Shown one piece after another: positions 41,446 to 59,144 of a DNA stretch of 64,000 bases; position 1 is the stretch's first letter, and each line of letters begins with the position of its first letter. The DNA is from Thermogladius calderae 1633 (GTDB taxonomy: Archaea > Thermoproteota > Thermoprotei_A > Sulfolobales > Desulfurococcaceae): positions 186,001 to 250,000 of the forward strand of contig NC_017954.1 of the NCBI RefSeq assembly GCF_000264495.1, given 5' to 3'. The notes beneath the pieces were generated by a model. It did not search any database, had not been told where the DNA came from, and saw nothing but the letters and a program-made list of their open reading frames with translations. The translations under genes were made by a program, and so were the position numbers.

Positions 41446-41500
41446 TTGTATGAGGAAGTCCTCGATCGCTGAGGAGTGATGATAAAGGGGTTGGCTGATT
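41446..41500 (+). ncRNA. Candidate box C/D guide sRNA ending at a start codon
   Basis: Plus strand: box C ATGAGGA (41450-41456, one mismatch), 12-nt guide AGTCCTCGATCG, D' CTGA (41469-41472), 3-nt spacer, C' GTGATGA (41476-41482), 12-nt guide TAAAGGGGTTGG, D CTGA (41495-41498). The 12/3/12 geometry is exactly that of archaeal dual-guide C/D sRNAs. TTATTAAAG (41416-41424) is a TATA box 26 bp upstream of the expected 5' end. The D box directly abuts the TTG start of the next gene. Predicted methylations: target CCAAC and CGAUC, at the last base of each. Confidence 0.6.
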
Positions 41501-48792: not shown

Positions 48793-48857
48793 GTTGTCAG
48801 ACAGGGTTCGTTAGTCTTCATCCTGGCGCGTCGTTGGATAGGGCGCTCATCACTAGT
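48793..48857 (-). ncRNA. Candidate box C/D guide sRNA downstream of the 167-aa gene
   Basis: Minus strand: box C GTGATGA (48853-48847), guide GCGCCCTATCCA (12 nt), weak D' ACGA, C' AGGATGA (one mismatch), guide AGACTAACGAACCCTGT (17 nt), D CTGA (48800-48797). CTATTAAGG (48883-48875) is a TATA box about 26 bp upstream of the expected 5' end. Internal boxes are less perfect than in the other candidates. It lies on the same strand as, and just after, the gene at 48895-49398. Confidence 0.45.
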
Positions 48858-48894
48858 TCATAGTCTCCGCCTACGCCTTAATAGAGATTACCTC

Positions 48895-49398
48895 TCACGC
48901 CAGGCTCCTAACGTAAGAAGATAGGACTTCAAGGCTCTTGCCTATCGAGGTTATTAGCTTGTCGAAGCCTTCTCTCTCAGTACACACGGTGAAAATAGAG
49001 GAGGGAGGGCTCACGAGGTCTCTCAACGACCCTCTCAAGGCAACTCTGACCAAGACTCCTTTAGGGCTACATCTAATGTAGAGCTGCGTCCCTTCTATGG
49101 TATCCGAACACGCGACCCAGTCTCCCACCTTAACGAGGGGTTTGTTACACGGGCACTTTGACGCCCTGGCCCAATACTCAAGGCACACACTCCTAACGTA
49201 CTCGGTTGAGCCCGCGGACTTCACCTTGTATATCACGTCGTGAACCGCCCCGATCTCCGCGGACAGCAGTGCTATTAAAGAGACGGGTGGAAGTACTTCG
49301 ACTCTAAAACCCTTCTCTCTCAGAGCACGGGCTAGCTTGGGGAGCGCGACCTCGCTTACAGCGTCCATGTAGAGTTTGACTAGAAGCGTCGCCCCCAA
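48895..49398 (-). CDS. Hypothetical protein flanked by C/D sRNAs
   Basis: 167 residues, not recognised. It has a Cys-rich middle (CLEYWARASKCPCNK, VACSD, IRC) that could bind metal, an N-terminal alpha/beta part and a C-terminal helix. No signal or membrane segment. TTG 49398 has AGGGTG (49410-49405) at good spacing, located immediately after the D box of the upstream sRNA. It therefore sits between sRNAs at 49.4 and 48.8 kb on the same strand, and the three may form one precursor. Confidence 0.6.
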   Translation of the reverse strand: MGATLLVKLYMDAVSEVALPKLARALREKGFRVEVLPPVSLIALLSAEIGAVHDVIYKVKSAGSTEYVRSVCLEYWARASKCPCNKPLVKVGDWVACSDTIEGTQLYIRCSPKGVLVRVALRGSLRDLVSPPSSIFTVCTEREGFDKLITSIGKSLEVLSSYVRSLA

Positions 49399-49407
49399 AC
49401 GCTACAC

Positions 49408-49462
49408 CCTATCAGGCAGGGATAACCTCCTCACCGATCAGGGCTCCCTTATCATCACCAAA
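49408..49462 (-). ncRNA. Candidate box C/D guide sRNA (23S peptidyl transferase region target)
   Basis: Minus strand: box C GTGATGA (49458-49452), 10-nt guide TAAGGGAGCC, D' CTGA (49441-49438), spacer TCG, C' GTGAGGA (one mismatch), 12-nt guide GGTTATCCCTGC, D CTGA (49415-49412). ATTTAAGT (49490-49483) is a TATA box 26-30 bp upstream. The D guide is complementary over 10 nt to CAGGGAUAAC, the universally conserved 23S segment ending at C2452. The N+5 rule predicts Gm2446 (E. coli numbering), which by my recollection equals the yeast snR38 site Gm2815. Confidence 0.72.
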
Positions 49463-49499
49463 GTTACTTTCACTAGTAGACCACTTAAATTGGTTACCG

Positions 49500-49556
49500 G
49501 GTTTCAGAAACACGAGCCGTCTTCACTAATCCGATAAGTGGCGACTCATCATCACA
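49500..49556 (-). ncRNA. Candidate box C/D guide sRNA
   Basis: Minus strand: box C ATGATGA (49552-49546), 12-nt guide GTCGCCACTTAT, D' CGGA (one mismatch), spacer TTA, C' GTGAAGA (one mismatch), 12-nt guide CGGCTCGTGTTT, D CTGA (49507-49504). The 12/3/12 geometry is textbook. AATAAATTTGG (about 49586-49575) is a TATA box at correct distance; read the other way it serves the DUF2208-like gene. It lies in tandem directly upstream of the next sRNA. Predicted targets AUAAG and AAACA (modified last base) are not identified. Confidence 0.62.
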
Positions 49557-49618
49557 ACCTAATATTACTATCCAAATTTATTAATCTACCAGCCAATAGT
49601 GTTCTTAGCGTGTCCGCG

Positions 49619-50338
49619 ATGATGGGCCAGCCCAAGAGGCACGTCAGCATCCTGATCAACGCCGTCAGCATAATAGTCATAGCCCTCTTGACAACCCTGC
49701 TACCGGCGTACAGTCTACTGATATTCTTCGTCTTCTACATGTTCGTCTTATTCATCGTCTACAGGTTCACAATGAAAACTGGTAAAATGCCCCCGCCGAG
49801 CGAGCTTGGGACCCCCTTATACAAAGAGTCTAACGCCATGAAGGTCGCGGTCTCAGACCCGGGCCTAAACAAAGACCTAGGACAGCAATTCAAGTTCCTC
49901 ATGGTAACTATCGCAATCTCTATACTGGCGATCTTCCTGTACTCGCTTTACAACGGGCTAGCCGGCGTAGAGTTGGTGAGCCTCCTTCTTACTGTGACGG
50001 GGAGTAGGTTGCTTTCCAATTTCCTGAACTATGTTACGATGTACGCCTTCATCTTCGTCATACTTTACTCGTTGAGGTGGGCCGTCACGAGGAAGATGAC
50101 CTACGTGAACTTGATCATACCCTATAGCTTCGCAGTATATAGGAAGGGTATCGTGATAAACAACAAGAACTTTATAGCACTAGACCACAACCTCTGCCTT
50201 ATTTTCAACAAGCAGAGGAGGTTCATCGAACTACTAGACCCTCGATCCAAGTCCTCTAGGATCAGGCTCTACACCGAGACTCCTACAACCTTATACGAGA
50301 GGCTAGTCGAGGTGGGTTTCAACGAGTGTAAAGCATAA
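49619..50338 (+). CDS. Multi-pass membrane protein (DUF2208-like)
   Basis: About 239 residues with four to five predicted helices (near residues 10-45 as a pair, 95-115, 120-145 and 150-175) and a basic cytosolic C-terminal domain (about 185-239). It resembles a crenarchaeal family I recall as DUF2208; function unknown. AAATTTATTAATC (49575-49587) about 28 bp before GTG 49610/ATG 49619 suggests a leaderless mRNA, so I reject the longest start at 49538. It overlaps the small zinc-binding gene that follows. Confidence 0.72.
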   Translation: MMGQPKRHVSILINAVSIIVIALLTTLLPAYSLLIFFVFYMFVLFIVYRFTMKTGKMPPPSELGTPLYKESNAMKVAVSDPGLNKDLGQQFKFLMVTIAISILAIFLYSLYNGLAGVELVSLLLTVTGSRLLSNFLNYVTMYAFIFVILYSLRWAVTRKMTYVNLIIPYSFAVYRKGIVINNKNFIALDHNLCLIFNKQRRFIELLDPRSKSSRIRLYTETPTTLYERLVEVGFNECKA

Positions 50339-50345
50339 GTGTGTC

Positions 50346-50561
50346 GTGTGTGGAAGGCCTTTCCCGGAAGGGCAGGGTATTGTAGTACAGTACGGCGACC
50401 TGAAACTCGAGTTCCACAGTAGCAAGTGTGCCAGTAAGTTCTTCAAGAGCTTGTTAGAGAGAGTAGAGCCGCGTGTCTTGTCTCCGTATATCAAGAGGCT
50501 AGTCGAGGAGTATACCGAGGTAGTCGAGTCGAAGGCCAGGAAAAGGATAAAAGTGATCTAG
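50346..50561 (+). CDS. Small TRASH/L24e-like zinc-binding protein, start uncertain
   Basis: 71 residues from GTG 50346. The sequence CGRPFPEGQGIVV...FHSSKCASKFF is a TRASH-type treble-clef zinc motif. The expected first ligand Cys (TGT 50340) lies upstream of this GTG: the frame reads K-C-V-V-C-G from 50337, so a functional protein should start earlier. Back to the in-frame TAG (50304) there is no ATG, GTG or TTG; only ACG 50322 or GTA 50328 follow the good Shine-Dalgarno GAGGTG (50309-50314). Either initiation is non-standard or the gene is expressed by frameshift from the membrane-protein gene it overlaps. Confidence 0.6.
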   Translation: MCGRPFPEGQGIVVQYGDLKLEFHSSKCASKFFKSLLERVEPRVLSPYIKRLVEEYTEVVESKARKRIKVI

Positions 50562-50562
50562 A

Positions 50563-50627
50563 GGCGTCAGATCGCGGTAATTTCGTCATCCATGCGTCGT
50601 CTGGGGGCAAGTGTCTTCATCCAGGCT
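50563..50627 (-). ncRNA. Candidate box C/D guide sRNA (16S 530-loop target)
   Basis: Minus strand: C TGGATGA (50623-50617), guide AGACACTTGCCCC, D' CAGA (one mismatch), C' TGGATGA (50592-50586), guide CGAAATTACCGCGAT, D CTGA (50570-50567). Both C boxes deviate from RUGAUGA, which lowers confidence. In favour: GTTTAAAGG (50654-50646) is a strong TATA box with no protein gene behind it, and both guides match neighbouring 16S segments as I recall them (CGCGGUAAU of the 530 loop; GGGGCAAGU just before it). Predicted Cm528 for the D guide. Confidence 0.5.
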
Positions 50628-50659
50628 ATACCTTTGCAACCAAGCCTTTAAACGCGTCT

Positions 50660-57790: not shown

Positions 57791-57894
57791 TGGACCGGCC
57801 GGGACTTGAACCCGGGACCTCCGCCTCTCCTGCGACCTCGGTTGAAGCTAAGGCCTTGCAAGGGCGGCGCTCTTCCAGGCTGAGCTACCGGCCC
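57791..57894 (-). tRNA. tRNA-Ala (anticodon TGC) with 30-nt intron
   Basis: Minus strand: acceptor GGGCCGG pairs with CCGGTCC including the G3-U70 identity pair of tRNA-Ala; D arm GCTC/GAGC; anticodon stem CCGCC/GGCGG; anticodon TGC; T arm CCGGG-TTCAAGT-CCCGG; discriminator A; no CCA encoded. After A37 an insert of 30 nt (57856-57827) precedes A38, the canonical 37/38 archaeal intron position, removable by the splicing endonuclease through a bulge-helix-bulge. Confidence 0.94.
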
Positions 57895-59086: not shown

Positions 59087-59144
59087 CTTGGTGATGACGA
59101 GACCTAGAAGCCGACTCGTGACGACCCACGCAGGATCTGATGAA
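59087..59144 (+). ncRNA. Candidate box C/D guide sRNA
   Basis: Plus strand: box C GTGATGA (59091-59097), 13-nt guide CGAGACCTAGAAG, D' CCGA (one mismatch), spacer CTC, C' GTGACGA (one mismatch), 12-nt guide CCCACGCAGGAT, D CTGA (59137-59140). ACTTAAATAAGC (59054-59065) is a TATA box about 26 bp upstream of the expected 5' end. No protein gene follows on this strand. Predicted modified bases: last U of CUUCU and of AUCCU; I cannot name the targets. Confidence 0.65.

Follow-up and report, generated by a model that had tools for sequence, protein, structure and literature searches.

Four minus-strand elements clustered within 1.8 kb of the Thermogladius calderae genome (c1 to c4) are very probably genuine archaeal C/D guide sRNA genes, with predicted targets in 16S rRNA, 23S rRNA and tRNA-Arg. 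The sRNA genes c2, c3 and c4 and the fast-evolving ORF between c3 and c4 recur as a core in at least four families of the order, and c1 is linked to this block only within the family. The transcripts of the cluster, as we propose below, probably arise from separate promoters in Thermogladius and from shared precursors in some relatives.

Box elements and density of the cluster

The host, an archaeon of the Desulfurococcaceae, has a genome of a single contig (1,356,318 bp), in which fibrillarin and Nop5 are encoded as adjacent genes. The window, that is, the whole 64-kb stretch analysed, covers bases 186,001–250,000. All four C/D candidates of the original prediction were recovered at the predicted coordinates on the minus strand with C, D', C' and D boxes, as listed below with the neighbouring features in their order of reading.

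50647..50652, minus strand: TATA-like TTTAAA before c1 (sequence; −40..−20 enrichment across orthologs)
50567..50620, minus strand: c1, C/D box sRNA; boxes C ATGAAGA, D' ACGA (alternative CAGA), C' ATGACGA, D CTGA; D' guide CACTTGCCCCCAG, D guide AATTACCGCGAT (box scan, 16S pairing, same pairings in three relatives, alignment)
49574..49585, minus strand: TATA-like ATTAATAAATTT before c2 (sequence; ortholog enrichment)
49504..49552, minus strand: c2, C/D box sRNA; boxes C ATGATGA, D' CGGA, C' GTGAAGA, D CTGA; D' guide GTCGCCACTTAT, D guide CGGCTCGTGTTT (box scan, pairing, relatives, sub-threshold Rfam sR5)
49485..49490, minus strand: TATA-like ATTTAA before c3, nearest visible promoter for the ORF too (sequence; ortholog enrichment)
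49412..49458, minus strand: c3, C/D box sRNA; boxes C GTGATGA, D' CTGA, C' GTGAGGA, D CTGA; D' guide TAAGGGAGCC, D guide GGTTATCCCTGC (box scan, pairing, guide/rRNA co-change, four families)
48895..49398, minus strand: ORF of 167 aa between c3 and c4, fast-evolving, with a predicted tandem ferredoxin-like (saddle) fold
48878..48883, minus strand: TATA-like TATTAA before c4 (sequence; ortholog enrichment)
48797..48853, minus strand: c4, C/D box sRNA; boxes C GTGATGA, D' ACGA, C' ATGAAGA, D CTGA; D' guide GCGCCCTATCCA, D guide CTAACGAACCCTGT (box scan, tRNA pairing, relatives)

Each of c1–c4 carries C and D boxes at its ends, C' and D' boxes inside and guides of about 10–14 nt, with weak D' boxes in c1 and c4 and one mismatch in the C box of c1. 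As predicted, two of the elements are in tandem (c2 and c3, 45 nt apart) and the 167-aa ORF occupies the space between c3 and c4; its TTG start follows the D box of c3 after 13 nt, and its stop precedes the C box of c4 by 41 nt. A long GTG start at 49538 for the plus-strand DUF2208 ORF was rejected because a relative has stop codons there, and the real start is likely at about 49619; positions 49538–49618 would thus not be coding on the plus strand, and c2 would be intergenic.

The box scan used a generic C/D box-and-spacing consensus, with a scanner and spacings made for this analysis that are strict, so that the genome-wide number of sRNAs is underestimated. Six matches in the window scored at least 25, namely c1–c4 and two plus-strand elements at 41450–41498 and 59091–59140, and the next best scored 17.1. 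At a score of at least 22, there were 14 matches in 464 kb of the host genome versus three in 1.39 Mb of dinucleotide shuffles. With the sRNA density estimated from a 400-kb genome sample plus the window (8 per 400 kb outside the window), the Poisson probability of four sRNAs in 1.8 kb was ~7e-8, or ~2e-4 corrected for the whole genome, and the corrected value would rise to ~0.1 if the genome had 128 sRNA genes, like Ignicoccus (PMC4644070). That these are C/D sRNAs packed densely around an uncharacterised gene has strong support from the box scans, from the complementarity of the guides and from their conservation in relatives, but the accompanying statement that C/D sRNAs are usually dispersed was too strong, a review placing a significant fraction of them in clusters of two or three (PMC7994747).

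Rfam at its cut-offs returned no C/D sRNA family in the window or in 11 relative loci. The nearest approach was that of c2 to sR5 (RF01304), with which it aligns end to end at 39.3 bits, below the cut-off of 40; the likeness lies mostly in the boxes, and no relative reaches the sR5 cut-off in the 11 loci.

The two plus-strand elements are putative fifth and sixth C/D sRNAs. The D' guide of the element at 41450–41498 (AGTCCTCGATCG) forms 11 bp with 16S rRNA at Eco 1308 (E. coli numbering), and a relative of this sRNA lies ~300 nt from c1 in the Staphylothermus-like loci L042, L085, L087 and L088, and thus in the same neighbourhood in those genomes. The D guide of the element at 59091–59140 (ACCCACGCAGG) pairs over 11 bp with several tRNAs of a single class, in the region of their T arm. 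Furthermore, an intron-bearing tRNA missed by ARAGORN was identified by Rfam at 57791–57894 on the minus strand.

Predicted methylation targets

The guides were tested against the host's own 16S rRNA, 23S rRNA and 46 tRNAs, only pairings that include the N+5 nucleotide being allowed, and E. coli (Eco) numbers were taken from pairwise MAFFT alignments. At least one guide in each of c1–c4 was complementary to rRNA or tRNA across N+5. The double guide of c1 forms 10 and 9 Watson–Crick pairs with 16S rRNA at sites 24 nt apart; when the D' position aligned across relatives (ACGA/GCGA/GAGA) is used, these sites are predicted to be G465 (Eco G505) and C489 (Eco C528), which belong to the 530-loop pseudoknot region. 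That of c2 forms 13 bp (one G-U) and 8 bp with 23S rRNA at predicted targets A699 (Eco A575) and G721 (Eco G597), 22 nt apart; the D site of c2 was not kept in two other lineages tested (G020 and G060), in which other 23S sites fit better. Compared with E. coli, the 23S gene of the host (L002) has long extra stretches of 164, 68 and 336 nt near Eco 1846, 1886 and 1926, respectively, which are probably introns.

The predicted D target of c3 is 23S G3212 (Eco G2446), with 10 bp. The Thermogladius 23S site is CAGGGATAAC and its c3 guide ends in CCCTG, whereas three relatives combine the 23S site CGGGGATAAC with CCCCG guides; guide and rRNA thus change together, T being opposite A in Thermogladius and C opposite G in the other genomes. 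The D box of c3 is degenerate (CCGA, CAGA, CGGA) in the Staphylothermus-like group. For c4, the predicted D' target is U20a in the D arm of tRNA-Arg, with 13 Watson–Crick pairs to two isoacceptors and 11 to others, a result reached in 0 of 300 shuffles; the core of this target is present in all 11 genomes tested (with one mismatch in G014). The D' guide of c3 and the D guide of c4 had no convincing target among the host 16S rRNA, 23S rRNA and 46 tRNAs. The D guide of c4 resembles tRNA T arms (CGAACCC), but its score was not above that of shuffles, and this candidate was rejected.

Taken one by one, most rRNA matches are modest (p 0.01–0.08), the anchored complementarity giving p values of 0.013 for c2 D, 0.037 for c1 D, 0.08 for c1 D' and 0.07 for c3 D. 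The case for the predicted targets rests instead on the paired sites, on one two-sided change of guide and rRNA, and on recurrence: the same sites were predicted from the relatives' own rRNA in three relatives for c1, two for c2 and three for c3.

Conservation and synteny

The boxes, complementarity, conservation, synteny and overlaps described here were all observed directly in the sequences. Between the window and a MAG of the same genus, the four RNAs are 83–91% identical, the spacers 28–53% and the ORF 52%, and boxes and guides of c1–c4 are conserved above their flanks. This is the opposite of the pattern that would count against the original prediction, namely boxes lost in close relatives beside conserved flanks. 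The synteny proposed as a check was also found, c1 and c2 lying in the same place in 7/7 sampled family genomes as well as in MAG loci, and in about 15 further genomes or MAGs, the corresponding positions around DUF2208 are occupied by all or some of these sRNAs. Single sRNA genes may be flipped inside the conserved spacer: c4 is inverted relative to c2 in three family genomes, and c1 is flipped in place in G030 (loci listed: L043 5316–5257; G009, G030, G041).

Sequence models run over 59 genomes of the order found c1 in 30, c2 in 25 and c4 in 14. Outside the family, c2 and c4 lie 600–700 bp apart on one strand in G003, G014 and G025 (family f4), G031 (f10) and G048 (f9), and reading of the f4, f9 and f10 loci revealed c3 and an ORF of 168–199 aa between them. 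Three more families of the order thus have the core c2–c3–ORF–c4. Its neighbours in f4 and f10 are p71 and a large helicase on one side and a second Alba-like gene and reverse gyrase on the other, with one extra gene in f10; in f11, c2 alone is left between the helicase and the Alba-like gene. A neighbourhood of p71, a ~940-aa helicase, c2, an Alba-like gene, reverse gyrase and Alba is conserved in several families (L162 of f11, L150–L153, L157).

The ORF and its overlaps with c3 and c4

The ORF, described originally as an orphan, is not a true one but a fast-evolving gene at the same place in relatives. An open frame of 160–211 aa is present in nearly all loci, dN/dS is ~0.2 between two same-genus genomes, and the family alignment contains invariant Cys and Pro columns. 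Searches of Pfam, NCBIfam and PDB sequences gave nothing credible; matches to influenza HA2 (E 0.1–1) were discarded as noise. Weak matches outside the genus (E ~1e-4 to 1e-5) were counted as homologs only if position agreed. The ORFs of f1 and f4/f10 share their position, but their homology is not proven, with a profile comparison at 58% probability and identity between families near background.

The AlphaFold model (pLDDT 87, pTM 0.82) consists of two ferredoxin-like halves and a long C-terminal helix. Structural comparison gave NapD as the best match to part of the model (Z 8.9, 74 aa, rmsd 2.1). Over its full length, the model aligned with the tRNA-binding N-terminal domain of methanogen-type seryl-tRNA synthetase (2cim; Z 7.3, 128 aa, rmsd 3.5) and with TBP folds (about Z 6, 119 aa, rmsd 4.5). 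All these matches are suggestive only; the full-length ones come with no sequence similarity, and a Z below 8 may reflect a common arrangement only. LarC2, the best match by Foldseek E-value, was rejected (TM 0.28, rmsd 16).

In the window, the ORF overlaps neither c3 nor c4. In relatives, the longest ORF begins inside c3 in L084, L085, L086, L087, L088, L089, L042, L150, L151 and L152, and where it does so the C'–guide–D stretch of c3 translates as (K)KLSPSEP or LSPxE; the c3 guide GTTATCCCCG is kept to the base, including third codon positions, as expected if the RNA is under selection. At its opposite end, the ORF has a TGA stop that is part of the C box of c4 in L042 and L157, the ORF extends into c4 in L089, L150 and L153, and it ends one base short of c4 in L151 and L152.

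Promoters and transcripts

The original prediction placed a TATA-like element 25–30 bp before each C box, which is about right, the measured distances being 22–33 nt. Among orthologs, strong TATA-like matches at −40..−20 versus −65..−45 numbered 5/7 versus 0 for c1, 7/13 versus 2 for c2, 2/9 versus 0 for c3 and 3/9 versus 0 for c4, an enrichment in favour of independent promoters for c1 and c2. No AT-rich element belonging to the ORF itself lies at a suitable distance, and its only visible promoter is that of c3; since c3 occupies the space where an ORF promoter would lie, the ORF is likely to be transcribed from the c3 promoter. In L079 (3604–3865), ~260 extra bases that are absent in the close relative L080 lie between c3 and the ORF and carry a TATA-like element near their end. 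The gap between c2 and c3 is 19–22 nt in L086 and L154, and c4 sits within the 3' end of the ORF in f10, so that a shared precursor is likely there.

The suggestion of a processed polycistron found only partial support. In some relatives, c3 or c4 lacks space for a promoter. Co-transcription of c3 and the ORF is likely in Thermogladius, as is that of c2 and c3 or of the ORF and c4 in some relatives, but c1 cannot share a transcript with c2, because antisense reading through two genes would be needed, and each Thermogladius sRNA has its own TATA-like element.

Alternative explanations

It is extremely improbable that the box matches arose by chance in non-coding spacer sequence. Motifs such as CTGA and TGATGA are short and common, and some D' boxes are weak, but the shuffle control, the agreement of guides with targets and the conservation of boxes and guides across genera and families all argue against chance, and the conservation of the RNAs while their flanks diverge already refutes it. 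The view that the ORF codes for no protein and stays open only as a spacer lying between sRNAs draws on the near-background identity between families and the weak profile match of f1 to f4/f10; the persistence of the frame in nearly all loci, its dN/dS, the confidently predicted fold and the invariant Cys and Pro columns make it very unlikely.

A single polycistronic precursor, read from the c2 promoter through c2, c3, the ORF and c4, with the three sRNAs cut out, is a possible but less probable arrangement. These genes lie on the same strand with gaps of 45, 13 and 41 nt, the ORF lacks its own AT-rich element, the c2–c3 gaps of L086 and L154 are too short for a c3 TATA outside c2, and c4 overlaps the ORF end in L042, L089, L150, L153 and L157. 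However, equally spaced TATA-like elements precede both c3 and c4, not only in the window but also in several relatives, c2 and c3 are ~740 nt apart in L041, and the inversion of c4 relative to c2 in three family genomes indicates that co-transcription is not required. For one precursor with no separate promoters, the TATA-like elements before each sRNA of the window speak against, and the overlaps and 19–22-nt gaps in relatives speak for. A dual-output unit, in which one precursor gives either mRNA or guide RNAs and the protein acts in guide-RNA or tRNA biology, is improbable, though conceivable for relatives in which excising c3 would remove the ORF start codon and excising c4 its stop codon. 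If so, sRNP assembly on c3 or c4 would set the amount of ORF protein, and this protein, for which a two-lobed fold of ferredoxin/TBP-like type is predicted, could have a part in the biology of guide RNAs or tRNAs.

Discussion

Archaeal C/D sRNAs determined by RNA-Seq in seven archaea share with c1–c4 the box set, two guides per RNA and the N+5 rule, and include double guides with nearby targets like those of c1 and c2 (PMC4644070), though none of c1–c4 reaches an Rfam cut-off. The same study lists 16S helix 18 and 23S rRNA near the peptidyl transferase centre as methylation-guide hot spots, and related guides in different species are often treated there as convergent; by contrast, the shared position supports orthology of the guides in the present cluster. 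Single overlaps of C/D sRNAs with ORFs are already known in archaea, and a review citing Tripp et al. 2017 describes stops inside a C box, as in L042 and L157, starts inside an sRNA, as in L042, L085, L086, L089, L150 and L151, and tandem sRNAs in clusters of two or three (PMC7994747). Here, unlike those cases, a single ORF touches or overlaps sRNAs on both sides, in a block that four families have retained. That the four sRNAs are ordinary members of the known class is well supported. Groups of two or three being already known, what is new is the depth of block conservation and the double overlap.

Considering these results, we propose the following scenario, in which the expression, RNP assembly, methylation and transcript structure of the cluster are what we infer. 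Each RNA would be bound by L7Ae, Nop5 and fibrillarin, and a 2'-O-methyl group would be placed on the target nucleotide that pairs with the guide five positions upstream of the D or D' box. In this way, c1 may direct methylation of both strands of the 16S 530-loop pseudoknot, c2 that of 23S rRNA around Eco 575/597, c3 that of 23S Eco G2446, next to the peptidyl transferase centre, and c4 that of the tRNA-Arg D loop. The genes c2, c3 and c4 and the ORF probably form an ancient block, c1 being a neighbour that the family has retained. In Thermogladius, separate promoters probably serve the individual sRNAs, and transcription of the ORF probably starts at the promoter of c3, so that c3 would be released from the 5' end of this transcript; in relatives with touching or overlapping c2–c3 or ORF–c4, the sRNAs probably come from cleavage of a shared precursor.

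Descriptions of archaeal C/D genes stress their plastic positions and fast-changing guides. In at least four families, a block of three guide RNAs, joined by a fourth within the family, appears to have outlasted the sequence of the protein gene that it encloses. Specific methylation sites are predicted in the pseudoknot of the 530-loop, in tRNA-Arg and close to the peptidyl transferase centre. Furthermore, the separate, abutting and overlapping arrangements of sRNA and ORF would provide a natural series for studying C/D transcription and maturation, which also bears on whether overlap sets ORF output.
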